From: Paragemmobacter ruber
GTDB lineage: Bacteria > Pseudomonadota > Alphaproteobacteria > Rhodobacterales > Rhodobacteraceae
Reading direction: 5' to 3'
NCBI RefSeq assembly: GCF_009908315.1
Contig: NZ_JAAATW010000003.1
Span: 1 to 64,000 of the forward strand
DNA: 64,000 bases
Shown here piece by piece: positions 2,457-29,145 of this stretch (within the stretch, counting starts at the first letter, position 1; every line of letters starts with the position of its first letter). Under the pieces are notes generated by a model. It was not told the origin of the DNA and made no database searches. It was given only the letters and a program-made list of their open reading frames with translations. Made by a program: the position numbers and the translations under genes.

Positions 2457-3186
2457 ATGACGCAGATGTCACGGGCGCGCTGGCGCCCCCCGATGCCTTG
2501 GCAGGTGCCGATCGCCCTCGCCACGCTGTTCACCGCCCTGCTGTTTGCAGGCGCGGCCCTTGCCCACAACGTTACTGAAGGCGACGCGGGCTATTTGCAA
2601 GAGGTGACGGGCTTCCGTCCCATCGCCTTCATCTACCTCGGCGCCAAGCACATGGTGACGGGCTATGACCACCTCTTGTTCCTCGCCGGGGTGATCTTCT
2701 TTCTTTACCGGGCCAAGGACATCGCCACCTACGTCAGCCTCTTTGCCGTCGGCCATTCGGTGACGATGATCGCGGGGGTCTGGTGGCAGGACTCGATCAA
2801 CGCCTACATCATCGGCGCGATCATCGCGTTTTCGGTGGTCTACAAGGCGCTCGACAACCTCGGCGCCTACCGGCTGTGGTTCGGAGTGCAGCCGAACACT
2901 AAAGCCGCGACGCTGATCTTCGGCCTGCTGCCTGGCTTTGGTCTGGCGACGAGGATTCAGGATTACGACATCTCGCCTGATGGTCTGCTTGGCACCCTGA
3001 CCGCCTTTAATGGGGGGGGGAGTTGGGCTGGGCCAGCTGATGGCGCTGGCCTTGATCCTGATGGCGATGACCCAGTGGCGGGCGCGGTCTGCCTTCGCAA
3101 GGCAGGCCTGTGTTGCGCATGTCCTGATGATGATGGCCGGCTTTGCCCTGATGGGCCTGCAGATCACCGGCTATTTTGTCGCCTGA
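2457..3186 (+). pseudogene. HupE/UreJ-family membrane protein, frameshifted at a G9 tract
   Basis: The frame from 2457 encodes a signal-like segment ending A-L-A-H-N, then membrane segments with G-Y-D-H-L-L-F and G-H-S-V-T motifs, as in HupE/UreJ-type proteins thought to move nickel or cobalt. At 3012-3020 there is a run of nine G. After it the reading frame becomes unlike the family. Removing one G restores a continuation (G-V-G-L-G-Q-L-M-A-L, then two membrane helices ending G-Y-F-V-A) that stops at 3186. The intact product would be about 242 residues. It is either a real frameshift, a slippery-tract switch or a sequencing error. Confidence 0.75.
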
Positions 3187-3202
3187 AAGCGGGGCGAGAT
3201 CC

Positions 3203-3780
3203 ATGACCAACCGTTTCGATATCTCGAAGGCCCCCTTGCGGGCCGAACCCCGAACTGCCGCTCCGGCCCCGGTCAATTCCGTTCCGGCCATGCCGGGCGA
3301 GCTGATCCGGTCCACGCTGATCGCCGCCGGAGCGGCGGGGGCGATCCTCGTTCTTCTCTGCCTGCCTGCTGAATACGGGATCGACCCGACCGGGGTAGGC
3401 GCCCTGACCGGGCTGACCGAGATGGGCGAGATCAAGACCCAGCTTGCCGCAGAGGCCGATGCCCTTGGCCGCCGCAGCGGCGCCGGTTCCTGCCGCAGCT
3501 GCAGCGCCCGCCACCGAGCCCGCCACCCCCGCATGGCGCGATGAGGTCAGCTATACCCTGAACCCTGGCGTATGGCAGCGTGGTGAATTTTGACCTGCAC
3601 GGTGACAGCAGCGGCGAAAGCATCAGCTACGAACAGAGCTGCGCCGTGCCCGAGGCAACGGGCGACCTCACGGCCGCCTTCACCGGCAATCACGGATGGT
3701 TCTGGCGCAACCGCACCGACGCGCCGGTGACGGTGACCCTGCGCACCGGGGGGAATACGCGGAAATCAAGGCGCCGTCAC
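3203..3780 (+). pseudogene. Remnant of a 'transmembrane anchor' protein with several frame breaks
   Basis: The N-terminus from ATG 3203 (M-T-N-R-F-D-I) has a membrane helix followed by L-P-A-E-Y-G-I-D-P-T-G-V-G. This is typical of small anchor proteins found beside HupE-like genes. An extra G near 3467 shifts the frame into an Ala/Pro linker and W-R-D-E-V-S-Y-T-L. A deletion near 3569 then joins it to Y-G-S-V-V-N-F-D-L-H-G-D in another frame. A G-tract at 3748-3753, one base short, moves the final segment (E-Y-A-E-I-K) to a third frame. The C-terminal domain motif G-N-H-G-W-F-W-R-N is preserved. No intact product can be made as sequenced. Confidence 0.7.
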
Positions 3781-3948
3781 CTGCCGCGCCCTGGCAGGAT
3801 ATCGGACCGGCCTGCCAGGGTCTGCCCAAGACGATCCGATGGGTTGCGCACGGTCGCCCGTGTGCGCGCGTTGCAGGCGGTTTGGCGTTTGGGGAAGCCG
3901 GGGTTCCCCCCACACACAGAGGGGGCGGTGAAGGTGGTTTTGCACCGG

Positions 3949-4155
3949 TCAGGCCGGCGTCGGATGCAGCATCGGCCTTGTCTTGAGCACCTCGATGCTG
4001 TCCAGCAGGGCCTCGCGCGGCAGGTCGCGGCCGATGATGACGATACGGCTGTGGCGGTCCGCCCCGGTCCAGCGGGCCAGTCTGACCGGCGGGTCCGCGA
4101 TGTGCTGGAGACCGTGGATGACGAAGCGGGTGTCTAAGCCCCCCTCCCATATCAC
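3949..4155 (-). pseudogene. CobW-type GTPase, C-terminal fragment
   Basis: Sixty-eight residues on the minus strand contain R-F-V-I-H-G-L-Q-H-I-A-D-P-P-V and D-R-H-S-R-I-V-I-I-G-R-D-L. This is the signature of the C-terminal domain of CobW/P47K metallochaperone GTPases. The N-terminal GTPase domain is absent; the ABC transporter gene begins within 30 bp upstream on the same strand. It is the end of a gene truncated by a past rearrangement. CobW proteins handle zinc or cobalt, which fits the neighbouring metal genes. Confidence 0.65.
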
Positions 4156-4182
4156 AGAGGGTATCGGGGCCGCCGGTGGCGA

Positions 4183-6006
4183 TCAGATCGCGACCAGATG
4201 GCCAGCGCCGACATCGCGAAGGATCACCCGTTCCGGCCCGGATCCCACCGGATGGACAGGGTTGGGCAGATCGCCCGTCATGCGCACCGACGGGCGGCGT
4301 TGATGGGCCGGGTCGGGAACCGGCACGGCTTCGATCAGGCGTTGCGTATAGGGATGGCGCGGATCGCCAAAGACCTGTGCGCGGCTGCCCATCTCGACGA
4401 TCTGGCCCAGATACATCACGGCCACCCGATCCGAGATGCTGTCCACCACCGCCATGTCATGGCTGATGAAGAGATAGGCCACGCCCATCTCCTGCTGCAA
4501 CTCTTGCAGAAGGGCCAGCACCCTGGCCTGAACGCTGACATCCAGCGCGGACACGCTTTCATCGGCGATGATGAGATCGGGTTTGAGCGCGAGCGCCCGG
4601 GCAATGCAGATGCGCTGGCGCTGTCCGCCGGAAAACTCGTGCGGGTAGCGGTCGATCTGATCCGGCGACAAGCCCACACGGCGGAGCAGATCCGCCGCTT
4701 CGGCGCGCCGGTCGGCCGCCGTGCCGATTCCGTGGATGAGCAGCGGTTCGGCGATCAGGTCGCCCACCCGCATCCGGGGATCGAGCGCGGCCATCGGATC
4801 CTGAAACACCATCTGCACCTTGCGGCGCAGCGCCTTGGGCGCATCCCGCCCATGGGCTGACAGCACATGGTCGCCCACGGTGATCTGCCCCTGATGCGGC
4901 ACAAGCCCGACGATGGCCCGGGCGATGGTGGATTTGCCGCAGCCGGATTCGCCCACAAGCGCGAAAGTCTCGCCCCGGGCGATATCGAAGCTGACATGTT
5001 CGACGGCATGGACATTCAGCGTGGTCCGCCCCAGCAGGCCGCCCCTGACGGGAAAGCGGACCACCACATCGGACAGGCGGGCGACAGGTTCGGCAGCGGG
5101 CAACGGCGCGGGGGCGGCGGCGGCTGCGCGCGCGCCCATGCGCGGCACCGCCGCCAGAAGATCGCGCGTATAGGGTTCGGTCGGGGCATGGAAAAGCTGG
5201 CGGACCGGCGCCTGTTCGACCATGCGCCCGGATTTCATCACGATCACGCGGTCTGCCATTTCGGCCACCACGCCCATGTCATGGGTGATCAGGATGATCG
5301 CGGTGCCAAGGTCGCGCTGCAGATCGCGCAACAGGTCCAGCACCTCGCGCTGCACGGTCACATCCAGCGCGGTGGTCGGTTCATCGGCAATCAGCACTTC
5401 GGGGCGCAGCGCCAATGCCATGGCGATCATCACGCGCTGGCGCATCCCGCCCGACAGTTCGTGCGGATACTGATGCATCCGCCGCTCGGGCTGCGACAGG
5501 CGCACGGCCGTCAGGGCGGCAAGGGCGCGGCGGCGGGCCTCGGCACGCGGGAGGGGTTCATGCGCGCGGATCGCCTCGGCCAACTGGGTGCCGATGGTCA
5601 GCACCGGGTTCAGGCTCGTCATCGGTTCCTGAAAGATCATGGCGATCCGGTCGCCCCGGACATGGCGCATCTGCGCCTCAGGGGCGGCGGTCAGGTCGGT
5701 CTGGCCAAGGCGGATGCTGCCCGCCGTCACGCGCACGGCAGGCGGCGGCAGAAGGCCCATGATGGCGAGCGAGGTCATGGATTTCCCCGATCCGCTTTCC
5801 CCGGCGATGGCCAGCGTCTCGCCCCGGCGCAGGGTGAAGGATAGGTTTTCCACCAGGGGCTTCAGGCCCGCTTCGGTGCGGACGGAAACGGTCAGCCCCG
5901 CGACCAACAGGACGGGGGCCGCCTCTGCGGCGGCATCCAGCGCGGCATCTGGGGCGGCATCCGGGGCCGCGGCGGCCCCGGATCTGGTTGCGACCTCCTG
6001 CATCAT
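4183..6006 (-). CDS. Fused oligopeptide-type ABC transporter ATPase (DppD-DppF in one chain)
   Basis: A 607-residue cytoplasmic protein with two complete ABC domains. Domain one has Walker A at 69-76 (G-E-S-G-S-G-K-S), signature L-S-G-G-M at about 184 and D-E-P at 208. Domain two has Walker A at 352-360, signature F-S-G-G-Q at 458 and Walker B D-E-S at 482-484, with Ser in place of the usual Pro. The family is peptide/nickel importers (DppD/F, GsiA-like fusions). The start overlaps the amidase stop in an ATGA. It energises the permeases encoded upstream in the operon; the substrate is probably an amide or short peptide. Confidence 0.88.
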   Translation of the reverse strand: MMQEVATRSGAAAAPDAAPDAALDAAAEAAPVLLVAGLTVSVRTEAGLKPLVENLSFTLRRGETLAIAGESGSGKSMTSLAIMGLLPPPAVRVTAGSIRLGQTDLTAAPEAQMRHVRGDRIAMIFQEPMTSLNPVLTIGTQLAEAIRAHEPLPRAEARRRALAALTAVRLSQPERRMHQYPHELSGGMRQRVMIAMALALRPEVLIADEPTTALDVTVQREVLDLLRDLQRDLGTAIILITHDMGVVAEMADRVIVMKSGRMVEQAPVRQLFHAPTEPYTRDLLAAVPRMGARAAAAAPAPLPAAEPVARLSDVVVRFPVRGGLLGRTTLNVHAVEHVSFDIARGETFALVGESGCGKSTIARAIVGLVPHQGQITVGDHVLSAHGRDAPKALRRKVQMVFQDPMAALDPRMRVGDLIAEPLLIHGIGTAADRRAEAADLLRRVGLSPDQIDRYPHEFSGGQRQRICIARALALKPDLIIADESVSALDVSVQARVLALLQELQQEMGVAYLFISHDMAVVDSISDRVAVMYLGQIVEMGSRAQVFGDPRHPYTQRLIEAVPVPDPAHQRRPSVRMTGDLPNPVHPVGSGPERVILRDVGAGHLVAI

Positions 6007-6962
6007 TCAAAGACGCAGCGCGGGAAGAAGAAGCTGACCACCCAGTTCGGCATATCGACGATCTCGGATATCCGCAGATCGCCGCAGGTGGAGACGAGCA
6101 TATAGGCATCGACCGCCGCCATGCCATGCGTGGCGGTCAACAGGTCGATCATGTTGGCCACCGCATCGCGCGCGGCGGTCATCAGATCGGGCCCGATGCC
6201 GGTTGTCACCTCATACCCCTTGGCGTCGAGATGCCGCGTCACCGGGCCGGGCGTGGTGAAGCGCGGGGTCTTGAGGTGCGCGCCCTTGACCAGATCGAGC
6301 GTCAGGACCACGTCCATCGGGCTTTCGATCGCGGTGCCGCAGACCTCGCCATCGCCTTGCGCGGCATGGGTGTCGCCCACGCTGAACAGGGCGCCCGCCA
6401 CCTCGACCGGCAGATAGAGGGTGGTTCCCGCGTTCAGGTCACGGATGTCGAGATTGCCGCCCACCCGCCGCGGCGGGACGACGGAATGAAGCCCCGGTTC
6501 GGCCAGCGCGTTGCCGATGGTGCCCGCAAAGGGTTTCAGCGGCACGCACCCCTGATCGGACCACAGCGCAGGCGCCATGCTGTTGGGGTCGTATTTCCAG
6601 ACCTTCAGCGCAGGTTCGGTGAACTGGTCGGCAAGCAGCCCGAAGCCGGGGATATTGGCCGTCCAGCCAAAGCCCGCCCCGTCAAAGACCCGGGGGGCGA
6701 AGCTTTCGATGGTGACCTTGACCGCGTCGCCGGGTTCGGCCCCTTCGATATAGATGGGGCCGGACACCGGGTTGATCTTGCCGAAGTCGAGGGAAACCAC
6801 ATCGGCCACGGTCGACGACGGGCCAAGCTGGCCCGCCGAGGAATCGTTGCAGTGAAACAGGATCGTCGATCCCGGTTCGGCGCGCAGGGCAGGGGCGATG
6901 GAATTGTCCCAGCCGAAGTGATGCTGCGCGCCGTGGATCGTGTAGTCACAGGCCTTGCACAT
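6003..6962 (-). CDS. Acetamidase/formamidase family hydrolase
   Basis: A 319-residue enzyme of the FmdA/AmdA family, which hydrolyses formamide or acetamide to ammonia and the acid. It shows the N-terminal H-F-G-W-D-N-S motif, a central G-D-T-H-A-A-Q-G-D-G-E metal/active-site motif and the late T-C-G-D-L-R-I-S motif of the family. It lies between the substrate-binding protein and the ATPase genes of an importer and shares the operon with AmiC/AmiR-type regulators. The operon therefore probably imports small amides and releases their nitrogen. Exact substrate is not readable from sequence. Confidence 0.88.
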   Translation of the reverse strand: MCKACDYTIHGAQHHFGWDNSIAPALRAEPGSTILFHCNDSSAGQLGPSSTVADVVSLDFGKINPVSGPIYIEGAEPGDAVKVTIESFAPRVFDGAGFGWTANIPGFGLLADQFTEPALKVWKYDPNSMAPALWSDQGCVPLKPFAGTIGNALAEPGLHSVVPPRRVGGNLDIRDLNAGTTLYLPVEVAGALFSVGDTHAAQGDGEVCGTAIESPMDVVLTLDLVKGAHLKTPRFTTPGPVTRHLDAKGYEVTTGIGPDLMTAARDAVANMIDLLTATHGMAAVDAYMLVSTCGDLRISEIVDMPNWVVSFFFPRCVFE

Positions 6963-6964
6963 GG

Positions 6965-8575
6965 TTATTTCACGAAAACATAGTCATAGTTGACCGGGAT
7001 GGAGACGGGATCGACGTAAAGCGCGTCATCCCCGCCCATGCGTTCGGACTTCATGGTGTAGCGCTCTTCGTTGAAGACCGGCACCCACGGGGCCTGTTCC
7101 ATCACGCCCATATAGACGTCAGACCACATCTTCAGCCGCGCTTCCGCCTGCGCGGGATCGGACAGGCTGTCGGCCTGCACGGCCATGGCATCCAGCGCCT
7201 CGTCGCAGAACTTGGACCAGTTCCAGCCGCCTTCGCCCGCACCGGCACAGCCGAGGATGGGGCCATAGAAGTTGGACGGATCGGGGAAATCGGCGATCCA
7301 CGCCATGCCACCCGACCAGACCATCGGCGCCGTGCCGGCACCGCCCGCCTCGATCACGTTGGCCTGTGCCAGCGACTGGATGTTCGCCGTGATGCCGATG
7401 GCCGCCAGATCCTGCTGGATGGCCTGGGCGATGCGGGGGTTGGGGTCGGTGTTCATGACGTAGAGATCCGTCTCGAACCCGTCGGCAAGGCCCGCCTCTG
7501 CCAGCAGGGCCTTGGCCCCTTCGACATCATAGGCGTAGCCTGCATAATCGCCGGTATAACCCGGCATCGACGGCGGCAGCGGCTGGGTCGCGGGGACGGC
7601 GCGGCCGTTGATGATCTGGGTAATGCGCTCCTTGTTGATGGCCATGTTCACCGCCTTGCGCACCTCGACCTTGTCGAAGGGCGGGGTGGTGACGTTCAGC
7701 GTGATATAGCCGGTATGCAATTGCCCGCCGACCACCACGCGTTCGGCCTGTGCCGGATCGCCCATCACCTCGACGAACTTGGCGGGCGGGATGCCGTCGC
7801 CGGGGACGTCTACCTCGCCGTTCTGCAGGCGCAGCAGGGCCACGACAGGCTCCTGACCCACCTCGAACACAACGCCATCCAGATAGGGCACGCCCTCGCG
7901 CCAGTAATCGGCGTTCTTTTCAAACACCAGCCGCTGGCCCAGCGTCCATTCCGCCAGCTTGAAAGCCCCGGTTCCCACCGGTTGCTTGCCGAAATCGCCT
8001 GCCGCCGCATCCACCGCCTCTTTCGGCACGACGGAGGCGAAGTTCAGCGCCATCACATGCAGGAAGGTGGCATCCGGGCGCGACAGCGTGATCTTGACGG
8101 TCAGGGGATCCACGACCTCTACCCCCGACAGCCCGCCTGCGCCTGCATTTTCAAACCCGGCGATGGAGCCGAAGAAGCCTGCACCCGGCGACTGGGTTTC
8201 AGGATTGGTCACGCGGTCGAGCGAGTATTTGACATCCTCTGCCGTCATCTCGCGCCCGTTGTTGAATTTGACGCCCGCGCGCAGCTTGAAGGTGTAGGTC
8301 AGGCCGTCTTCGGAAATCTCGTAGCTTTCGGCCAGACCGGGGCGCAGGGTCGTGGTGCCGGGGACATAATCCATCAGCCCGTCGAACAGCGACTTGATCA
8401 TCGACCAGTTCTGCCAGTCATAGCCGATCGCGGGGTCGAGCGTGGCCACGTCATCCTTGTAGGTGACGGTGATGGTTCCGCCTGCCTTGGCGTTGGGATC
8501 GGGCGTGTAGTCCTGCGCCGCGACGGGCAGCGCCAGCGTCAGCGCGAGGGCGGTGGATGCGAGCAATTTTTTCAT
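6965..8575 (-). CDS. ABC transporter substrate-binding protein, family 5 (dipeptide/oligopeptide type)
   Basis: A 536-residue periplasmic binding protein with a clear signal peptide (M-K-K-L-L-A-S-T-A-L-A-L, cleavage after A-A-Q about residue 21) and the SBP_bac_5 fold. Family features include T-L-D-P-A near the mature N-terminus and Y-T-F-K-L-R-A-G-V-K-F about residue 90. Length is normal. It is followed 2 bp later by the amidase gene. In this operon it should capture the amide or peptide ligand for the permease pair. Confidence 0.9.
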   Translation of the reverse strand: MKKLLASTALALTLALPVAAQDYTPDPNAKAGGTITVTYKDDVATLDPAIGYDWQNWSMIKSLFDGLMDYVPGTTTLRPGLAESYEISEDGLTYTFKLRAGVKFNNGREMTAEDVKYSLDRVTNPETQSPGAGFFGSIAGFENAGAGGLSGVEVVDPLTVKITLSRPDATFLHVMALNFASVVPKEAVDAAAGDFGKQPVGTGAFKLAEWTLGQRLVFEKNADYWREGVPYLDGVVFEVGQEPVVALLRLQNGEVDVPGDGIPPAKFVEVMGDPAQAERVVVGGQLHTGYITLNVTTPPFDKVEVRKAVNMAINKERITQIINGRAVPATQPLPPSMPGYTGDYAGYAYDVEGAKALLAEAGLADGFETDLYVMNTDPNPRIAQAIQQDLAAIGITANIQSLAQANVIEAGGAGTAPMVWSGGMAWIADFPDPSNFYGPILGCAGAGEGGWNWSKFCDEALDAMAVQADSLSDPAQAEARLKMWSDVYMGVMEQAPWVPVFNEERYTMKSERMGGDDALYVDPVSIPVNYDYVFVK

Positions 8576-8608
8576 CTGCGTCTCTCCTGTTGGGTTGGTT
8601 TTGCCGCA

Positions 8609-9526
8609 TCAGCGCAGGCGGATGCGGGGGTCGATAAGGGGGGCAACCAGATCGGCAAGAAGATTGCCGATGACGATGGCAAGGGCAGAGACCAGCGTGA
8701 CACCCATGATGATGGGGATGTCCACGCGCTGGATCGCCTGCCAGGCAAGCTGGCCAATACCCGGCCAGCCGAAAACGGATTCGACGACGACGATGCCGCC
8801 CATGAAGATGCCGATGTCGATGCCGATCATTGCGATGACGGGCAGGATGGCATTGGGCAGGGCGTGGCCAAAGACGACGCGCGCCCGGCTCAGTCCCTTG
8901 GCGCGGGCGGTGCGGATGTAATCGGCGCGCAGGACCTCGGTCATGGAGGAGCGCATCATTCGGGAATACCAGCCCGACCCGAGGATGCCCAAGGTGATGG
9001 CGGGCAGCACCAGATGCGCCGCCGTGCCGTAGCCGCCGATGGGGAACCAGCCCAGTTTGACGGCAAAGACATACAGCAGGAGAAGGCTGACCACGAATTG
9101 CGGGGCCGAGACGGTGACGAAGGAGGCCATCATCAGAAGCTGGTCCCCAAGGCGCCCTCGCATCAGCGCCGCCGCGATGCCCATGGACAGGCCCAGGATC
9201 AGTTCCGCCACGATCCCCGCCGCCATCAGTTGCAGCGTGGCGGGCAGGCGCGACAGGATCAGCTCCGTCACTTCCGTCTTCTGCAGATAGCTGCGCCCCA
9301 GATCGCCCTGCGCCAGCGCCGCGAGGTAGCGGCCGTATTGCACCAGCAGCGGCTGATCCAACCCCAGTTGCTGGCGGATGTTCTCGACCGTTTCCGCCGT
9401 GGCGGCGCGGCCTGCGATCTGGCGCACTGGATCGGCCGGCAGGACATAGAGCAGCACGAAGGTGATGAAGCTGACCCCCAGAAGGATGAGGGCAGACTGG
9501 ATCAGGCGGCGCAGCACATAGACCAT
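8609..9526 (-). CDS. ABC transporter permease, DppB type
   Basis: A 305-residue inner-membrane protein with about six membrane helices. It starts M-V-Y-V-L-R-R-L-I-Q-S, the typical beginning of DppB-like permeases, and contains the coupling-loop segment around Y-I-R-T-A-R-A-K-G-L. It overlaps the preceding permease gene by one base and precedes the binding-protein gene. It forms half of the importer channel. Confidence 0.9.
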   Translation of the reverse strand: MVYVLRRLIQSALILLGVSFITFVLLYVLPADPVRQIAGRAATAETVENIRQQLGLDQPLLVQYGRYLAALAQGDLGRSYLQKTEVTELILSRLPATLQLMAAGIVAELILGLSMGIAAALMRGRLGDQLLMMASFVTVSAPQFVVSLLLLYVFAVKLGWFPIGGYGTAAHLVLPAITLGILGSGWYSRMMRSSMTEVLRADYIRTARAKGLSRARVVFGHALPNAILPVIAMIGIDIGIFMGGIVVVESVFGWPGIGQLAWQAIQRVDIPIIMGVTLVSALAIVIGNLLADLVAPLIDPRIRLR

Positions 9527-10410
9527 CAGTCGCGCCCCCGCTGGGTGGGATCGAGCACGTCGCGCAGCGCATCGCCCACAAGGTTGAAGGCCAGCGCCAG
9601 CAGGATGATCGCCGCCCCGGGAATGAAGACCAGCCAGGGCGCGGCCTGAAAATAGGTCTGGTTTTCAAAGATGATGTTGCCCCAGCTGGGCGTGGGCGGC
9701 TGCACGCCCACACCAAGGAACGACAGCGTCGCCTCCAGCAGGACGGTGGTCGAAATGCCCAAGGTGCCCCAGACGATCAGCGTGGGCACGAGATGGGGCA
9801 GGATGTGGCGGAACAGGATGCGCCCGGTGCTTGCGCCCAGCGTGCGTTCGGCGGCGATGAAATCGCGCGCTGCAAGCGAGGTGGTCTCGGTATAGATCAC
9901 CCGCGCCGTCTGCACCCAGTTCACCAGCGCGATGACCAGCGCGACGATCCAGAGCGACGGCTTGAAGATCGCGGCAAGGCAGATCGCCAGCAAAAGCGCC
10001 GGGAAGGCCATCATCAGATCGGTGAACCGCATCAGCGTGGCCCCGATCCAGCCCCGGAAAAAACCGGCGGTCAGCCCCACCAGCGTGCCGATGAACAGGG
10101 CCAGCCCATTTGCGACCACCCCGACGATGAGCGAGGTTTGCGCGCCATAAAGCATCCGGCTGAACAGATCGCGCCCCAACAGATCGGTCCCCATGATGAA
10201 GCGGGCATCGGGGGGCAGGGGGGCGCCTTCCAGGGTCAGGCCATCGAAAAGCTGCTCTTCCGGCGCGTAGGGCGCGATGAGCGGCGCGCAGGCCGCCGCG
10301 CCCACCACGATCAGGATCATCGCAAAGCCGAACATGGCAAGCTTGCGTTCGCCAAGGCGGCGCAGGGTGGATTTCGGCGTCGATGCGGCGGGGGCGGGCA
10401 GGTCAACCAT
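9526..10410 (-). CDS. ABC transporter permease, DppC type
   Basis: A 294-residue inner-membrane permease with the DppC-type N-terminal helix (L-A-M-F-G-F-A-M-I-L) and the periplasmic motif F-I-M-G-T-D-L-L-G-R-D. The start at 10410 overlaps the stop of the ANTAR gene by 8 bp, indicating translational coupling. The longer open frame to 10521 is unlikely because it lies entirely in the upstream gene. Confidence 0.9.
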   Translation of the reverse strand: MVDLPAPAASTPKSTLRRLGERKLAMFGFAMILIVVGAAACAPLIAPYAPEEQLFDGLTLEGAPLPPDARFIMGTDLLGRDLFSRMLYGAQTSLIVGVVANGLALFIGTLVGLTAGFFRGWIGATLMRFTDLMMAFPALLLAICLAAIFKPSLWIVALVIALVNWVQTARVIYTETTSLAARDFIAAERTLGASTGRILFRHILPHLVPTLIVWGTLGISTTVLLEATLSFLGVGVQPPTPSWGNIIFENQTYFQAAPWLVFIPGAAIILLALAFNLVGDALRDVLDPTQRGRD

Positions 10411-11011
10411 CGAGTGAACCTTCCTGACCGGCGGGCGTGCCATCGCGGCTGGCCACGATGCGGGCGGCGGCATCTTCAAAGCTGATCCGCCACGCCATCG
10501 CCATCTGGCGCAACTGGGCATAGGCCTGCTCTTCCGTCTTGCCGCGCGCTGCCAGCAGCGTGACGGCCCGCACGACCGTCTGGCGCCCCTCCAGCCGCCG
10601 CTTCAGATCGGCGATCTCGGCCGACAGGGCCTTTTGCGCGTCAAAGGCATCGCGGGCGATCAGCAGGGCCGAATAGGCCCCGTTATCCCCCACGGGCTTG
10701 AGCAGCTGCGCATGGGATCCCGCCCGCAGCGACCATTCGATCCGGCCCGGCGCTTCGGACCCGATCAGCGCGATCATCGGCATGGGCGGCTGGCCCGCCG
10801 GCCAGGGAAACATCCCGTCATGGCCCATATCGGCATCGAAAAAGACGTAATCCGCCCCCATCGCATCGGCGCCCAGTTCCGGCCAGCACTGCACCACCTC
10901 AAGACCGATGGCCGTCAACTGCCGCAGCAGGGCCTGCACGGTGGGATGGGGACGGTGCAGGATCACCGCCCGGGCGCCGCCCAGTTCGGGGATGCGGATC
11001 GGCCGCCTCAT
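10403..11011 (-). CDS. ANTAR-domain transcription antiterminator, AmiR-like
   Basis: A 202-residue protein with a degenerate receiver-like N-terminal domain (about 1-125), a coiled region, and a C-terminal ANTAR three-helix RNA-binding domain (about 130-190, with R-Q-T-V-V-R-A-V-T-L-L-A and E-E-Q-A-Y-A-Q-L-R-Q-M-A-M). In Pseudomonas aeruginosa AmiR, held by AmiC, binds a leader RNA and prevents termination upstream of the amidase gene. Here it overlaps the AmiC-like gene by 4 bp, and a textbook intrinsic terminator lies just before that gene, so the same mechanism is predicted. Confidence 0.88.
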   Translation of the reverse strand: MRRPIRIPELGGARAVILHRPHPTVQALLRQLTAIGLEVVQCWPELGADAMGADYVFFDADMGHDGMFPWPAGQPPMPMIALIGSEAPGRIEWSLRAGSHAQLLKPVGDNGAYSALLIARDAFDAQKALSAEIADLKRRLEGRQTVVRAVTLLAARGKTEEQAYAQLRQMAMAWRISFEDAAARIVASRDGTPAGQEGSLDG

Positions 11012-12105
11012 GACGACACCACGCGCAACTGGGGCGGCACGGGCGATTGCGCGGACCGGGTGAGGTAGGGATCACCCGCCACGCCATCACGCCGATGCAC
11101 AAGGCGGAACGCCCCCCCTTCGACACGGGCGATGATCGCGGGCAGGACGGTGTGATGCGTCTCGGGGTCGATGATCCCGCCGTCCGTGCCTGCTTCGGCC
11201 AGAAGCTGGGACAGGCTCATCGCTTCGGCCCCCGGGCGATGGGAGAGAAGGCGCGCCAGTTCGCGCACCGCGACATAGGCCGCCGCCTCGTGCGACGAAC
11301 CAAAGCGCCCCTTGCCGGGCCAGCCCTCGATGCCGCGGAAATAGGGGCCTGCGGCCACCATCCCTTCGGCCGCCATGCCGATGGCGGGCAATTCACATTC
11401 CGTCATGTTGCAAGACAGGACCGGGCAGCGCGACGGCGCAAAGTGATCGTCCTGACGGCCAAGCTCGCGATAGGCGGCAAGGAATTCATAGGAGGACGGG
11501 CCGATCAGCGAATTCAGGATGAAATCCGGGCGCGCGTAGCGGATTTCCTCGATCATCCGGCCGACATCGCGCGACCCGATGGGAAGGTAGCGTTCCCCTA
11601 GGATGGTGCCGCCCGCGCGGACGATCCGTTCGCGCGCAAGGCGGTTCATCTCCCAGCCCCAAATGTAGTTGGACCCCGTCAGATAGGCCTTGCCGCCATG
11701 CGTTGGGATCACCCAGTCGAGCAGCGGCAGAAGGTGCTGGTTCGGGCAGGCATGGGTATAGACGACATGATCGGATGCCTCGAACCCCTCATAGGGCACG
11801 GCATACCAGAGCGTGCCGCCATGGCGTTCCAGCGTAGGGATGACTTCCTTCCTGCTCCAGGATGTGACGCAGCCGATCACATGCCGGGCAGAGGTTTCGC
11901 TGAGGATTTCGTCACAGAGCGGACCGTAGAGATCGACATTGCCTTCGGGATCGCGCTCCACCGCCACGAAGGACAGGTCGATCCCCGGATCGGCGTTCAG
12001 TTCGGCAATCGCCGCCAGCGCGCCGGAACGGCAGGCCTCGGAGATCAGGGAGTAGCTCCCTGATCGCGAGTATAACAGGCCGATCTCGATCCGCCGCTTC
12101 GTCAC
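11008..12105 (-). CDS. AmiC-like periplasmic-binding-fold sensor of amides
   Basis: A 365-residue protein of the AmiC/urea-binding (type I periplasmic-binding) family. It starts at a GTG at 12105 preceded by GGGGGCGAAAC. No signal peptide is seen, as expected for a cytoplasmic AmiC that sequesters AmiR. Family motifs include I-G-L-L-Y-S-R-S-G near the start and W-Y-A-V-P-Y-E-G-F-E about residue 100. Ligand binding should release the ANTAR protein encoded next. The frame extends upstream to 12234, but that part would read through the leader terminator. Confidence 0.82.
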   Translation of the reverse strand: MTKRRIEIGLLYSRSGSYSLISEACRSGALAAIAELNADPGIDLSFVAVERDPEGNVDLYGPLCDEILSETSARHVIGCVTSWSRKEVIPTLERHGGTLWYAVPYEGFEASDHVVYTHACPNQHLLPLLDWVIPTHGGKAYLTGSNYIWGWEMNRLARERIVRAGGTILGERYLPIGSRDVGRMIEEIRYARPDFILNSLIGPSSYEFLAAYRELGRQDDHFAPSRCPVLSCNMTECELPAIGMAAEGMVAAGPYFRGIEGWPGKGRFGSSHEAAAYVAVRELARLLSHRPGAEAMSLSQLLAEAGTDGGIIDPETHHTVLPAIIARVEGGAFRLVHRRDGVAGDPYLTRSAQSPVPPQLRVVSS

Positions 12106-12125
12106 CGTTTCGCCCCCGCCAACGC

Positions 12126-12163
12126 AAAAAACCCGATCCAGCAGTCGAAATCTGCTGTTCGGG
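12126..12163 (-). terminator. Intrinsic terminator in the leader of the amide operon (predicted ANTAR target)
   Basis: On the minus strand the arms CCCGA...CAGCAG and CTGCTG...TCGGG enclose a loop of about seven bases (ATTTCGA). A run of six T follows immediately (12126-12131). It ends 20 bp before the GTG of the amiC-like gene, downstream of any promoter for the operon. A terminator in front of the first gene, in an operon that encodes an ANTAR protein, is the hallmark of antitermination control. Confidence 0.85.
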
Positions 12164-12300
12164 CGCGAATGCCGATATGATGTTAGATTTGCAGGATCAG
12201 CATAAGGCAGTGCTGCCACCCTGCAATCCCCCAAGGCGGCCGGAGCGACAATAAAGCTGATGGTCGCCTAATTTTTAGGCGGACGGGCGGGTTTGTCTGC
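12164..12300 (-). promoter_or_regulatory. Leader/promoter region of the amide operon with structured repeats
   Basis: On the minus strand a perfect dyad CGCCTAA-AAA-TTAGGCG (12265-12281) precedes a segment in which TTGCAGG pairs with CCTGCAA around an inner GGCAG-CA-CTGCC. A weak sigma-70-like pair, TTGCAG and TATGCT spaced by 16 bp, lies in the same segment. The dyad may be an operator. The GGCAG hairpin may be the first of the two hairpins that ANTAR targets carry. Both assignments are inference. Confidence 0.4.
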
Positions 12301-12453
12301 CTGTGGGGCGGGCGGCGCACAGGGATGCAGGGCGCGGCGCCGGCGTGTCGGGGGCCTTGAGGCGTGGCGCGTGCAGGGCGCCTTGTCCCCAGAGCGGCGC
12401 ATCCTGTCCCTTGCCTCGCCCCACTTGCCTTGACCGTCGCGACGCCGCGTGGT
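12301..12453. other. Intergenic stretch between the amide and sulfate operons
   Basis: No convincing gene. Just beyond the cysA stop, on the minus strand, GCGTG-AAC-CACGC can form a small hairpin without a T-run. Confidence 0.4.
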
Positions 12454-13173
12454 TCACGCGCCGATGAAGTCGCGCACGAAAGGTGTTGCGGGCCGGGCGC
12501 GGATGTCTTGCGGTTTGCCGATCTGCTCGATCCGGCCCATCGACATGACGACGACCAGATCGGCCAGTTCCATCGCCTCGTCCTGATCATGGGTGACGAA
12601 GACGGTGGTCAGGCCGGTGGTGTCATGGATGTCGCGCAGGCCTTGGCGCAGTTCCTTGCGCACCTTGGCGTCAAGCGCGCCGAAGGGCTCGTCCAGCAGC
12701 AGCATCCGGGGTTCGATGGCCAAGGCACGGGCCAGCGCCACGCGCTGGCGCTGACCACCCGACAACTGCGACGGATAACGCGCGCCGATTTCGGGCAGCT
12801 GGATCAGGTCCAGCAGTTTGGTCACCCGACGGGCAATTTCCGCCTTGGTGGGCCGCGTCGCCCGGGGCCGGGCGTTCAGGCCATAGGCGATGTTGTCAAA
12901 CACCGTCATGTGGCGGAACAGCGCGTAGCTTTGGAACACAAAGCCTGCGCGCCGTTCCTGCACCGACAGGCCGGTCGCGTCCCGCCCGTCAAAGAGGACG
13001 CGACCAGAGGAGGGAAACTCCAGCCCGCCAAGGATCCGTAACAGCGTGGTCTTGCCCGATCCCGAAGGGCCGAGCAGGGCCACCAGCGCGCCCGAGGGGA
13101 TGGCAAGCGACACGGGATGCAGGGCGGCCGTCGTGCCGAACTGTTTGGAGATTTCGTCGATTTCGATATGCAT
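12454..13173 (-). CDS. cysA: Sulfate/thiosulfate ABC transporter ATPase, short form
   Basis: A 239-residue ATPase with Walker [10 protein letters not shown] at about 38-46, signature L-S-G-G-Q-R-Q-R, Walker [12 protein letters not shown] and switch His in V-T-H-D. The sequence is CysA-like and follows the two sulfate permease genes. It ends right after the ABC domain (F-V-R-D-F-I-G-A). The roughly 100-residue C-terminal TOBE-type domain of typical CysA is missing, and no continuation is seen in other frames. The start at 13173 has GGAG upstream. Confidence 0.88.
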
Positions 13174-13243
13174 GGCGATAGGCTCCGGGGGGCAAGAGTT
13201 TGGGTTGGTCCGGGTCAGGCCCGGGGCGCGCGGGTGTGCGGGG

Positions 13244-14107
13244 TCAATGGCGGTGCGCCGCGGCAAGCTGATCGGCATGGCGGATTTCCAGCGCGGTCTT
13301 GAGCAGGAGCGTGACCAGCGCCAGCAGGGCCAGCACGGCGGCAAGGCTGAAGGCCGCGACCGACAGGTATTCCTGATACTGCATCTCGATCGTAGTGGGC
13401 ATGGTCGCGGTCTGTCCCCGGATCTTGCCCGAAACGACAGAGACAGCGCCGAATTCGCCCATGGCGCGCGCATTGCAAAGGAGCACGCCGTAAAGCAGCG
13501 CCCAGCGGATGTTGGGCAGCGTCACCGTCCAGAACACCCGCCAGCCCGAAGCGCCCAGGGTGAGCGCCGCCTCTTCCTCGGCCCGGCCCTGTTCGATCAT
13601 CACGGGGATCAGTTCACGCGCCACGAAGGGGAAGGTCACGAACATGGTCGCAAGGATGATGCCGGGCATGGCAAAGACGATTGGGTAGCCCTGCGCCACC
13701 AGCCAGCCGCCAAGCGCGGAATTCGCACCAAACATCAGCACGATGCACAGGCCCGCCACGACGGGCGAAACCGAGAAGGGCAGGTCGATCAGCGTGATCA
13801 GGAAGGCCTTGCCGCGAAAGTCGAACTTGGTGATGAACCACGCCGCCGCGATGCCGAAGACCGCGTTCAGCGGCACCGAGATGGCGGCGATGGTCAGCGT
13901 CAGACGGATCGCATCGCGCGCATCGGGCGAGGCAAGGCTTTTGAGCGAGGCAGTCACGCCCTCTGCCAAAGCCTCGACAAAGACGGCGATCAGGGGCGCG
14001 AAGACGAGAATTGCAAGCCCTGCGAAGGCCAGCGCGATCAATGTCCAGCGGGCGGCGGGGCTTTCCTCGGTCGCCGCGCGAAAGCGGATTTGGGCTGCGT
14101 CAGACAT
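13244..14107 (-). CDS. cysW: Sulfate ABC transporter permease CysW
   Basis: A 287-residue inner-membrane permease with six predicted helices and the CysW segment [18 protein letters not shown] near the coupling loop. It overlaps the cysT stop by 8 bp. With CysT it forms the sulfate/thiosulfate channel. Confidence 0.92.
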
Positions 14108-14936
14108 ATCCTATTCTCCGGCGGCTCCAGATCTGGATGAGGTTGATGACCAGCAGCATCGCGAAGCTGATCAGCAGCATGGCGATGCCGATGGCGGCGG
14201 CGGCGTCGTAATTGAATTCTTCCAGCTGGATGATGATCAGCAGGGGTGCGATTTCGGTCACCAGCGGGATGTTCCCGGCGATGAAGATCACGCTGCCATA
14301 TTCGCCCACCGCACGCGCCAGCGACAGGGCAAAGCCTGTCAGCGCGGCAGGGGTGAGCATGGGCAGGATCACATGGCGCAGCGTGTGTAGGCGGCTGGCG
14401 CCGAGGGTTGCAGAGGCTTCTTCCACCTCGCGCTCGATCTCTTCCACCACGGGCTGCACGGTGCGGGTGACGAAGGGCAGGCCGACAAAGACCAGCGCGA
14501 TGAAGATGCCCCATTGCGTATAGGCGATCTTCCAGCCGATCTCGGCCGCGATCTGCCCGAAGGCGCCGTTCGGGGCATAAAGCGCGGTCAGGGAGATGCC
14601 CGCCACGGCGGTGGGCAGGGCGAAGGGCAGATCCACCGCCGCATCAAGGATGCGGCGCCCCGGAAAGCGGTAGCGCACCAGGACCCAAGCCAGCAGCACG
14701 CCAAAGACAAGGTTGAAAAGCGCCGCCAGCAGCGACAGGCGAAAGGACAGGAACAGCGCCGCCCAGACGCGCTCGCGGTTCACAGTGTCCCAGATGCCCG
14801 CCAAGCCAAAATTGGCGCCCTTCAGAAGAAGGGCGCCGATGGGCAAGAGGACGACAAGCGACAGCATCGTCAGGGTGATCCCCATGGAAACGCCAAGGCC
14901 GGGCATGGGGGATCGGTGGATGAAGGGTCTGCCCAT
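14100..14936 (-). CDS. cysT: Sulfate ABC transporter permease CysT
   Basis: A 278-residue inner-membrane permease. It has the CysT-type start G-L-G-V-S-M-G-I-T-L-T, the segment D-L-P-F-A-L-P-T-A-V-A-G and the coupling loop V-E-E-A-S-A-T-L-G-A-S. It lies 11 bp after the binding-protein gene and overlaps cysW. Confidence 0.92.
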   Translation of the reverse strand: MGRPFIHRSPMPGLGVSMGITLTMLSLVVLLPIGALLLKGANFGLAGIWDTVNRERVWAALFLSFRLSLLAALFNLVFGVLLAWVLVRYRFPGRRILDAAVDLPFALPTAVAGISLTALYAPNGAFGQIAAEIGWKIAYTQWGIFIALVFVGLPFVTRTVQPVVEEIEREVEEASATLGASRLHTLRHVILPMLTPAALTGFALSLARAVGEYGSVIFIAGNIPLVTEIAPLLIIIQLEEFNYDAAAAIGIAMLLISFAMLLVINLIQIWSRRRIGYV

Positions 14937-14947
14937 CGGCCTTTTCC

Positions 14948-16081
14948 TTACTTCGGCACGTAGATCTGGTCGAAGATGCCGCCGTCCCCGAAATGTTCCG
15001 GCTGCACCTTGGCCCAGCCGCCGAACGAGGCGATGTCGACCAGTTCAAGCTGCGGGAAGCGGGCCACATCCTCGGGCGCGGCTTTCGAGGTGTCCCAGGC
15101 GCGGTAGAAATGCTTGAAGGCCAGCGCCTGCCCTTCGGGCGAATAGAGGAAGTTCAGATAGGCCTCGGCCAGCTTGCGCTGTTCATCGGATTTGATGTTG
15201 CCTTCGACCAGCGCCACGGGCGGTTCGGCCAGAACCGATACCGAGGGCACCACGATGTCGAACTGATCTTCGCCGATTTCCTTCAGCGCCAGATAGGCCT
15301 CGTTCTCCCAGGCCAGAAGCACGTCACCGATGCCGCGCTGGGCGAAGGTGGTGGTAGAGCCGCGCGCGCCGTTATCGAGCACGGGGACGTTCTGATAGAG
15401 CGCGCCCACGAATTCCCTGGGATCCTGGCCGTTCTTTTCGGCCCATGCCCAGGCGGCGAGGTAGTTCCACCGCGCCCCGCCCGAGGTTTTGGGGTTGGGC
15501 GTGATGACCTCGACGCCATCAGCCACCAGATCGCCCCAGTCCTTGATGCCCTTGGGATTGCCCTCGCGGACAAGGAAGACGATGGTCGAGGTGTAGGGCG
15601 AAGAGTTGTTGGGCAGCTTGGTCTGCCAATCGGCGGGCAGCTTGCCGGCTTCGGCGATCCTGTCGATGTCCGAGGCAAGGGCCAGCGTCACCACCTGCGC
15701 CTCCAGCCCGTCGATCACCGCGCGGGCCTGGCTGCCCGATCCGCCATGGCTGACCTCGATCTGCGGGGCGGGGTTGCCCTGGGCCGTCCAGAAGGCGGTG
15801 AAGGCTTCGTTCACCTCGCGATACAGCTCGCGCGTCGGGTCGTAGCTGACATTAAGCAGCGTTTCGGCCTGCACTTGCGCCGGGGCCGCCCCCAGCGCCA
15901 GCAGCGCCACGGCCAGCGCCGACAGCGTGCCGCGCAGGGCGCGGGCCACAGGCCAGCCGCTCACGGGCCAGCCGGTCAGGCGGCGCACGCCATCGGCGAT
16001 GGTGACGCGGCCATCGGGATGGGCATCCACGACGGGCCCTTGCGCCGTTACCGTTCCGGCGAGTGTGATGGTGGCAAGCAT
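14948..16081 (-). CDS. Sulfate/thiosulfate-binding protein with an unusual N-terminal extension
   Basis: A periplasmic binding protein of the Sbp/CysP family. The mature part begins [15 protein letters not shown] and contains the family segments S-H-G-G-S-G-S-Q and [10 protein letters not shown]. The start at 16081 (377 residues) follows AGGAG at good spacing. It leaves about 45 residues before the hydrophobic signal core ([12 protein letters not shown]), far longer than a normal n-region. An in-frame upstream ATG at 16177 overlaps the preceding gene as ATGA and would add 32 residues. The true start is uncertain. Confidence 0.82.
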
Positions 16082-16173
16082 GGTCTTCTCCTGTTGAGGT
16101 CTGGTTTGGGCCGCGGAAATCGGCCGGAAGGGGGCAAGGCCCAGAATGGTGTGCGGGATCGGGGTGGCGGTCG

Positions 16174-16458
16174 TCATAGGCGGCCCTCCCTGCGGCGGCT
16201 GTCGGGCGTGATGCCGGCGATGCCGATCGGTTCGATGCGCGCCTCCCACACGGCGGCATCGCGACCTGACAGAAGTTCTGCCACGGCCTCGGCCGGGTTG
16301 CGGGTGAACAGCACCAGCGGGCTGCCGTTAATGCGGTGGGTCTGGCCGGTGCGGCGATCAATCAGGCGCACGGCACAGGCCTGCGGCAGCGCGGTGGACA
16401 TGGCCGACATCGACAGTCCTGCCCGCTGGGTCTGAGCCGGGGAAAGTGCAGTTGTCAT
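16174..16458 (-). CDS. Small conserved-looking protein heading the sulfate operon
   Basis: A 94-residue soluble protein that I do not recognise. It has a strong AAGGAG site before its ATG at 16458 and ends in an ATGA overlap with an in-frame ATG of the binding-protein reading frame. The middle segment ([16 protein letters not shown]) reads like a compact beta structure, followed by an acidic helix and W-E-A-R-I-E-P-I. Position suggests a role in, or coupling to, sulfate uptake. Confidence 0.6.
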
Positions 16459-16506
16459 CGTGGGTCTCCTTCGCTGTCGGGCCGGACATCAGCCTCCCAT
16501 GCCCTA

Positions 16507-16532
16507 AATAACGACAGAGATAGTCGAGTATT
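16507..16532. promoter_or_regulatory. Imperfect dyad upstream of the sulfate operon, possible Rrf2-type operator
   Basis: AATAACGAC and GTCGAGTATT lie as near-inverted arms around seven bases, about 50 bp upstream of the first gene of the sulfate operon and beyond the 3' end of the Rrf2 gene. Rrf2 proteins bind AT-rich dyads of this size. Assignment rests on location and symmetry alone. Confidence 0.35.
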
Positions 16533-16640
16533 GCAACGGAAAATTCACGCCAAAATTGGTCGTGTATAGAGAAAGAAATTCTCCGCGCCGGGCCCGCCCG
16601 AAGGGGCGGGGCGCATCGAAAGCCGTGGGAAAAAGGGCGG

Positions 16641-17096
16641 TTAGCCGTTGCCAAGCACCTGATCGGCAACACTGCCCGACCGCAGCATGTCTTGCAGCGT
16701 CAGCGATTCGATCATCACGAGGTAGGACCAGAACACCTCGGCAAAGACCTTGCGGATCCGGCAGGTGGCCTCATCGGCGCAATCCTCGCAGCGCTGATAG
16801 GCGCGGCGCGACAGGCAGGGCAGGGGGGCGATCGGCCCGTCGATCATGCGCAGAAGTTCCGAAATCGAGATTTCGGTCGGTTTCTTGATCAGCACATAGC
16901 CGCCCGCCCGGCCCCGGATCGACGCGATCACGCCCGCATTGCGGATTTCCAGAAGGATATGTTCAAGAAACCGCTTGGGCGTGTCGGACCGCTTGGCGAT
17001 CTCTTCGATCGTCAGGGGTTCGGGCTGGCCCTTGGCCGCCTCGTCCGCCAGCACAAGCAGCGCCTTGAGCGCGTATTTCATCTTCTGCGTGATCAT
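16641..17096 (-). CDS. Rrf2-family transcriptional regulator with a Cys cluster
   Basis: A 151-residue regulator. The N-terminal winged helix contains M-K-Y-A-L-K-A-L-L-V-L-A and the recognition part R-G-R-A-G-G-Y. A C-terminal cysteine cluster (P-C-L-S-R, then C-E-D-C and T-C-R-I-R) could bind an Fe-S cluster or sense sulfur status. It lies directly upstream of the sulfate-uptake genes on the same strand. The family includes IscR and CymR, the latter a regulator of cysteine metabolism. Control of the sulfate operon is inferred. Confidence 0.85.
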   Translation of the reverse strand: MITQKMKYALKALLVLADEAAKGQPEPLTIEEIAKRSDTPKRFLEHILLEIRNAGVIASIRGRAGGYVLIKKPTEISISELLRMIDGPIAPLPCLSRRAYQRCEDCADEATCRIRKVFAEVFWSYLVMIESLTLQDMLRSGSVADQVLGNG

Positions 17097-17314
17097 GGCT
17101 GAGCGTTACGCGCAGGAATAACGAGAATCAATGTCGGGATTAATCAGGGTCAACCTCGGCCGCTGCCCGTTGCGACAAAACACCAGCAAAACATGGGTTA
17201 CGGGCAGGGTGCGCGCGCCTTTGGAATAAACACGATAAAGACGGTAGACAATATTAGGAATTGCGTCATGCTGTAGCTGTGGCCCATCTGCCGGGCCGGA
17301 AAGGGGAATGCAGC

Positions 17315-28724: not shown

Positions 28725-28771
28725 CTACGTCGAAACGGCCCCCCGCCGGCCTTCGGGGCGCCCGGTTTCGT

Positions 28772-28930
28772 CTGGCCGGTCTTCTGACTTGGCTTCGCAC
28801 GGATGCTGCGCCTTCCCGGTCTTGCGACCAGTGGCCTCATGCAGCACCATCCACCTTACAGCGTTGGGCACGTCGCAGACTTGCACTGCGTTCCCGATTA
28901 TCCGGCAGCGAAAGGCCACCGGCACCAGAC
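28772..28930 (-). ncRNA. Cobalamin (B12) riboswitch
   Basis: The minus-strand leader of bluB contains the conserved riboswitch blocks in order: GGTGCCGGTGGCC at the 5' end, GGGAACGCAGTGCAAG with TGCGACGTGCCC, the B12 box GAGGCCACTG, then GACCGGGAAGGCG and GTGCGAAGCC...AGAAGACCGGCC at the 3' end. It ends about 57 bp before bluB. GC-rich complementary segments (about 28742-28770) between it and the start could form the expression platform. Confidence 0.92.
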
Positions 28931-29145
28931 TGGGAAAATCCTAGCCGCACCTGCGCTGACGCACAATGGAGGATCGGGGCGCGGCTGCGGGCGGGCGATG
29001 GAGACGCAGCCAAGCGCGCCTGTTCGCCGCCCCCTGATGGGGCATGTCCGTGGAAGGGGCCGGACGGGGCGGGGGCCGGACGGGGCGGGGGCCCATCCCC
29101 CTGACCAGAGCGATGCGGGGAAACCCGGCCGTCCTGTTACGCCGT
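28931..29145. repeat. Intergenic stretch with a short 16-bp tandem repeat
   Basis: Between the riboswitch and the hybrid kinase stop no gene is seen. At about 29056-29093 the unit GGGGCCGGACGGGGCG occurs twice and begins a third time, a minor GC-rich tandem repeat. Confidence 0.5.

Follow-up and report, generated by a model that had tools for sequence, protein, structure and literature searches.

How could transcription pass the terminator that stands before an AmiC/AmiR-type operon in the Paragemmobacter ruber DNA analysed here (a stretch of 64,000 nucleotides, the window), and can one RNA hairpin do there what two do in other systems? Comparison of many leaders leads us to think that this one very probably serves an amide-inducible operon under AmiC/AmiR-type antitermination, in which a single hexaloop hairpin, P2, would do the work of a P1 and P2 pair.

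The genes behind the leader (Table 1) agree with their preliminary description, according to which the first two encode an AmiC-like sensor and an ANTAR protein. The first product is a Peripla_BP_5 protein whose nearest PDB match is Pseudomonas aeruginosa AmiC (1pea/1qo0, 1.2e–39), and the second, with AmiR_N and ANTAR domains, is nearest to AmiR (1.9e–11). The two features by which an AmiC/AmiR antitermination system is recognised, an AmiC-type sensor adjoining an AmiR_N + ANTAR protein and a controlled operon whose leader includes an intrinsic terminator, are both found here. The AmiC sequence opens straight in the binding fold and, as read, shows no sign of a signal peptide; NCBI urea-binding-protein models give it 152.9 bits, far under their cut-off of 492.75. 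The residue that we take to correspond to AmiC Thr106 is Val in the window protein, so the inducer may not be acetamide. The ANTAR domain retains an aromatic residue and a Met spaced as Tyr164 and Met172 of EutV. The formamidase-family enzyme scores 125.4 bits against the NCBIfam FmdA equivalog, below its 500-bit cut-off, and the OppC/DppC-type permease is given as the listed ORF, whose true start, by reading, is probably near 10410. AmiC homologues in plasmid records L121–L126 are annotated as 'transporter substrate-binding protein', a label that masks probable cytosolic sensors.

Table 1. Coordinates of the amiC leader elements and operon genes in the window
Feature	Position	Strand	Basis or remark
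17-bp palindrome CGCC-N9-GGCG	12265..12281	.	sequence; candidate activator (NtrC-like) site
-35 element TTGCAG	12221..12226	-	leader comparison: TTG-type, 15–18 bp spacer to -10-like hexamer
-10 element TATGCT	12199..12204	-	spacer 16 bp; gap to P2 25 nt
P2 hexaloop hairpin GGC-AUUCGC-GCC, predicted AmiR site and antiterminator	12162..12173	-	leader comparison
Terminator stem-loop	12131..12164	-	GCC (12164–12162) common to P2
Terminator T tail, six T	12126..12131	-	from sequence
amiC-like ligand sensor, 365 aa, GTG start 12105	11008..12105	-	PF13433
amiR-like antiterminator, AmiR_N + ANTAR, 202 aa	10403..11011	-	PF21332, PF03861; PDB 1qo0 chain D
ABC importer permease, OppC/DppC type	9526..10521	-	PF00528, PF12911
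ABC importer permease, OppB/DppB type	8609..9526	-	PF00528, PF19300
Family 5 substrate-binding protein	6965..8575	-	PF00496
Acetamidase/formamidase family enzyme	6003..6962	-	PF03069, E 5.4e–58
Double ABC ATPase, DppD-DppF type fusion	4183..6006	-	PF00005 in 2 stretches, PF08352

The terminator is real and is part of the amiC operon (12164–12126, minus strand). We say so chiefly because it is conserved: 61 of 62 amiC leaders carry the hairpin motif described below and 58 of these 61 have a terminator in the same place. A hairpin with a six-T tail 20 bp ahead of the first gene (amiC has its GTG start at 12105) had been noticed before, and folding, sequence and conservation all bear it out. It is not the 'perfect' hairpin it was taken for, since a 1x2 internal loop (A / GA) breaks the stem, which reads on the minus strand, 12164–12131, GCCCGA a CAGCAG-auuucga-CUGCUG ga UCGGGU with a loop of 7 nt. 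RNA folding, which had been proposed as a check, returned a strong terminator: –20.9 kcal/mol for 12170–12120 (z = –3.6, equalled by 0 of 200 shuffles), –18.4 to –20.9 kcal/mol across folds, and –19.9 kcal/mol for the whole leader, where the terminator prevails. A simple pattern scan of 2500–17200 found 10 candidates versus 8.4 in shuffles, and the amiC terminator is not among the 10. The only Rfam match in the window lies elsewhere and is a cobalamin riboswitch (RF00174, 108.7 bits, 28757–28944, minus strand).

To place the leader among its relatives we collected AmiR matches, found in 23 of 61 genomes at E <= 1e–3 (own genome included; 14 of them at E < 1e–40) and, among 394 genomes sampled from the family, in 59 at E <= 1e–12. 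The 62 amiC leaders are those of the window, L029–L041 and L045–L092. L042–L044, of 16 regions, were excluded because their AmiC match is partial or weak. The set also leaves aside 17 weaker AmiR matches (E 2e–18 to 8e–13), two of which overlap L042 and L043. Leaders whose AmiC is more than 50% identical to that of the window form the main group (45 leaders, 46 with L041); the distant set has 16, 15 of them with P2, and falls on the tree into two groups and not one clade. L078, the single leader of the 62 that lacks P2, is absent from the tree.

The motif GGCA-N5-GCC occurs upstream of amiC in 61/62 leaders and in 3.3% of leaders shuffled so that base content alone is preserved. Its GCC is the base of the terminator: an automatic terminator filter is passed there by 58/61 leaders, and in 56 of these 58 the pairing begins at the G of GCC. 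The three that fail, L036, L037 and L047, have the hairpin or stem and a poor T tract. When the A at loop position 1 (A1) is left out of the pattern, 58 leaders have between them 59 GGC-N6-GCC sites at the base of a terminator, and all but one of these sites carry A1; the exception belongs to L076, which has an A1 site as well. Other terminator-like sites in the same DNA (274 minus 10 amiC leaders) carry an A1 hexaloop at the base in 11/264 cases, some of these being one site counted again in close relatives. Conservation extends to the GGC arm and the loop, which lie outside the terminator, and an alternative structure is the simplest reason for it. Since the 3' arm of P2 is the 5' base of the terminator, the two structures are mutually exclusive. 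Both this overlap and A1 are found in canonical dual-hexaloop ANTAR targets, and the GGC-[A+5 nt]-GCC hairpin is, to judge from its sequence and position, the P2 antiterminator of ANTAR systems. By itself P2 has 3 pairs and –3.1 kcal/mol, which is not better than shuffles. As it is so weak alone and the terminator prevails in the leader, termination is probably the default and a protein would have to hold P2 during transcription. The obvious candidate for this protein is AmiR, which the transcript itself encodes and which AmiC would release once ligand is bound.

From 28 (alignment A1) of the 43 main-group leaders passing the terminator filter we built R1, a covariance model that spans P2 and the terminator. 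It finds 18/18 held-out main-group leaders (the remaining 15 and L036, L037 and L047) at E <= 0.032, L032 and L035 having near-identical relatives in the training set. In the distant set it matches 7/16 leaders at E <= 0.05 and 13/16 at E <= 1, and it matches none of six Pseudomonas/Alcanivorax-type loci at E <= 1, whose stems differ. Among 41 genomes, the amiC leader was matched in 11 of 13 with this AmiR (E <= 0.007; G003 and G037 were missed), 8 of the 11 being training leaders, where the model is partly circular; a match at E <= 0.1 was found in 1 of 28 genomes without this AmiR. AmiR-bearing genomes also gave 4 weak matches away from amiC (0.03–0.09). The genome of the window has one strong match, the amiC leader itself (2e–5, a training sequence), followed by one at 0.4. 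A wider P2 regulon was considered for this genome and dropped, as R1 gave no second credible match there.

The association extends to plasmids. P2 and an R1 match are present in 8/8 plasmid operons read, out of 256 records matching AmiR; these operons come from Rhodobacter, Paracoccus, Sulfitobacter, Rhizobium, Pseudochrobactrum, Aureimonas, Sinorhizobium and Shinella. In one genome (G401) the importer genes lie apart from amiC-amiR-fmdA and have a second P2 plus terminator ahead of them (L117:4287–4356). Outside the family, at class level, with a narrow pattern and ~220–340 nt of upstream DNA, a P2-like hairpin stands before amiC in only 4/9 loci (L099, L103, L104 and L106), the last three from one genus. 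Each of these three has two leader-like motifs, each with a terminator (near 2205–2261 and 230–290; reversed in L104), AGC-AGGGCA-GCU before amiC and GGC-AAGGAU-GCC after amiR.

The loop of P2 differs from what has been described. According to the structural and binding work, EutV and NasR require G at loop position 4 (G4; PMC3369931, PMC8934654, PMC7496416), and the 2012 papers give A1 and G4 in their text for eut, nasF and amiE, in the one loop as in the other. In the window the loop reads AUUCGC, with C4 in place of the canonical G4. At position 4 the 46 main-group leaders have C in 35, A in 6, U in 4 and G in 1, and at position 5 G in 32, A in 13 and U in 1; position 4 in 15 distant-set leaders is G in 6, C in 4, A in 4 and U in 1. 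The conserved loop is mostly A1-C4-purine5 and not the textbook A1-G4, and we count this as new. Six gammaproteobacterial amiE-type leaders (L093–L098: P. aeruginosa PA7, two other Pseudomonas, two Alcanivorax-type and one MAG) were compared by eye. Their P2 loops are AAAUGG, AAAUGA or AAAUAA, that is A1, U4 in all six and a purine at position 5 (R5), on the terminator base as in the window (PA7 AGAGC-AAAUGG-GCUCU); the likeness is A1, pyrimidine 4 and purine 5. Unlike the window, all six also have a clear A1-G4 P1 with loop AGCGUC or AACGGC (PA7 CAUC-AGCGUC-GAUG). It should be noted that the A1-U4-R5 loops of these P2 hairpins disagree with the A1-G4 of the published text on amiE. An A1-Y4-R5 loop type, which the leaders studied here have in common with the amiE-type ones, would broaden the search pattern for ANTAR targets.

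Whether a P1 precedes P2 depends on where the RNA begins. A promoter scan anchored on TTG upstream of P2 gives a sigma-70-type promoter with a predicted start near 12192 and hence a leader of about 65 nt. The 'further structured repeats' noticed upstream fall on this promoter (12226–12199) and on the palindrome (12265–12281), that is on DNA and not on leader RNA. A helix of 12229–12218 with 12197–12185, strong in the fold of 12240–12125, was rejected as RNA structure, since the 5' half coincides with the promoter elements that the leader comparison gave and reaches upstream of them.

The known systems have a further hexaloop, P1, ahead of P2. Two papers state that EutV antitermination requires both hairpins (PMC3369931, PMC8934654), and a third that NasR needs both for full affinity and binds a lone P2 at about 12 uM (PMC7496416); published text describes P1 as essential in both nasF and amiE. 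These precedents favour AmiR acting through the usual two hairpins also here, with a window P1 that is weak or unusual or made from a promoter further upstream, an option that we consider possible and, on balance, unlikely. No hairpin of 3 pairs with 2 G-C stands between the -10 element and P2 in the window or in any of its seven nearest relatives, so that, given the predicted start site, the P1 of a canonical ANTAR target is absent from the window. Upstream of the predicted start the window does have GGC-AGCACU-GCC at 12217–12206, though it sits between the predicted -35 and -10, and it is missing from L029, L030, L031 and L033. A1 hexaloops ahead of P2 are no commoner than chance in the main group (4 versus 2.9 in shuffles of the same kind, over the 45 leaders for which a promoter was called; 2 versus 0.7 for A1-G4), unlike the distant set, where 10 of the 12 leaders with a promoter call (of 15, scanned over a wider range than the main group) have an A1 hexaloop versus 2.8 in shuffles and 6 have A1-G4 versus 0.8. 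In nine main-group leaders no more than 20 nt separate -10 from P2, hence at most ~14 transcribed nt by the predicted starts, which is too short for P1 and a linker. Of the six plasmid leaders with a promoter call, four show no hairpin before P2 (L122, L124, L127 and L128, from Paracoccus, Pseudochrobactrum, Sinorhizobium and Shinella) and in the other two the hairpin present has a loop of 4 or 7 bases; a further two plasmid leaders gave no call.

A point for two hairpins is that a stable hairpin before P2 (at least 4 pairs, at least 3 G-C) occurs in 21 of 45 main-group leaders versus 6.9 expected from shuffles that preserve base content only. These hairpins mostly have 5-base or other loops, and roughly half of the main group retains a P1-like element of some kind. 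L049, L053, L057 and L060 are examples of such stable hairpins, several of which have a GGC/GCC-type stem and a 5-base loop. On the AmiR tree, leaders without P1 fall in several separate groups, by eye and with a bootstrap that was not yet stable. Many amiC leaders seem to need one hairpin where the studied systems need two, and those of the window group look like natural single-hairpin ANTAR antiterminators. With modest confidence, we lean towards a broader statement: that in the alphaproteobacterial AmiR group one hexaloop, mostly A1-C4-R5 and beginning from ~8 nt past the predicted 5' end, makes a complete ANTAR antiterminator, P2 having been kept where P1, in several branches, disappeared or degenerated. 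The two-hairpin rule would then not be general and G4 would not be required.

Two further accounts leave AmiR out. The terminator might only close the sulfate importer genes upstream and have no role for amiC, as the position of cysA would allow (it ends at 12457 on the same strand, about 290 nt upstream). We find this very improbable: in none of 13 operon relatives was cysA seen ahead of amiC (two of which have only 0.5–1.3 kb upstream), P2 remains ~50–150 nt ahead of amiC whatever genes precede, a predicted promoter lies between cysA and the terminator, and an end-of-operon terminator leaves the conserved GGC-A-N5 segment unexplained. Still less credible is control by a metabolite-binding riboswitch or another RNA-binding protein. 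A leader terminator fits many attenuators, but no Rfam family matches 12105–12300 at gathering score, ~65 nt give little room for an aptamer, P2 is the sole conserved element seen besides the terminator, and by R1 it co-occurs with this AmiR family in most genomes that have it, as given above.

Amide-induced antitermination by AmiR is, as far as sequence can tell, well supported, and may be pictured as follows. RNA polymerase would start at the predicted site and make the short leader. When no inducer is present, AmiC would hold AmiR, the leader would fold into the terminator (12164–12131 + U6) and few transcripts would reach amiC. With inducer, AmiR would be released and its ANTAR domain would bind GGC-AUUCGC-GCC (12173–12162) as the hairpin leaves polymerase; P2 held in this way would withhold its GCC arm from the terminator base. 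Read-through would then cover amiC, amiR, the importer, the formamidase-family enzyme and the ATPase. A single P2 appears to do here the work of the P1 and P2 pair of eut, nas and amiE. The features of the sequence, their conservation, the exclusion of one structure by the other and the identities of the genes are observed directly; binding by AmiR, the nature of the inducer, the position of the start and the sufficiency of a single hairpin we infer.

Much of this arrangement is known from the classic system. Like P. aeruginosa amiEBCRS, the operon has an AmiC-type sensor, an AmiR-type ANTAR protein and a leader terminator with both genes downstream of it; unlike it, amiC-amiR come first, and an FmdA/AmdA-type enzyme and a family 5 importer stand in place of AmiE. 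In PA7 the terminator (L093:2479–2508) is ahead of amiE, amiB, amiC and amiR, all in one direction, so the position of sensor and antiterminator downstream of the terminator, proposed earlier as a difference, is the same in Pseudomonas, and the feedback loop belongs to the classic system and is not new; a published account likewise includes it there (PMC5259723). Nor is an importer and amidase under AmiC/AmiR novel, as had been thought: another report describes an amiC-amiR-ABC transporter-amiE operon on a Klebsiella plasmid, which, as here, joins AmiC and AmiR with a cluster 5 importer and an amidase, the amidase being AmiE-type and not FmdA (PMC13209695). What remains of the preliminary description is its central proposal, ANTAR antitermination of the whole operon, for which the competing P2, its link to amiC and the identity of AmiC and AmiR speak at the level of sequence; the claimed difference, the repeats and the novelty fell away.

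As to the RNA, the window P2 resembles the EutV and NasR targets (Ramesh 2012, PMC3369931; Walshe 2022, PMC8934654; PMC7496416), in its C:G closing pair, A1, six-base loop and 3' arm in the terminator, and differs in having C4 and not G4 and no P1. The points that look new, the loop type and the missing P1, are both about RNA, and the 2022 paper leaves the single-hairpin option open (PMC8934654). EutV requires both hairpins, yet a single dimer cannot bind the two at once. The paper asks what role single-hexaloop motifs have, expects them at sites on which polymerase imposes no deadline, and cites mycobacterial sites near ribosome-binding sites where the dual motif is not always kept. Among the open-licence papers that the literature searches listed, none, judged by titles and the starts of abstracts, deals with single-hairpin leaders of this AmiR group. 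How ANTAR proteins prevent termination is unsettled, and the leaders of the window group are natural single-hairpin candidates that sit on terminators. Plasmid leaders that show no hairpin before P2 stand beside distant leaders with two hexaloops, so a direct test in short RNAs is possible.

Upstream of the promoter, the palindrome (CGCCTAAAAATTAGGCG) has counterparts with all 8 half-site positions in 21 of the 45 main-group leaders; by a second measure, 25/45 have a site matched by <=5% of their own shuffles (again preserving base content only). Distances from palindrome centre to -10 cluster near 75, 85 and 95 bp, in ~10-bp steps as for an activator on one face of the DNA; the Rayleigh test of these distances took a single site from each close group, 19 of the 25 in all, and set them against a uniform distribution, and its statistic is also raised by a single preferred distance. 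By eye, the window palindrome is no strict match to a consensus given for Paracoccus (PMC5424462). Two P-II (glnB/glnK-type) genes in the same genome have related A-rich upstream sites by eye, where the strict pattern is unmatched, and these sites make NtrC the first candidate for the palindrome. The NtrC-site consensus of Rhodobacter capsulatus is CGCC-N9-GGC. The palindrome looks like an NtrC-type activator site, and nitrogen control may sit above antitermination.
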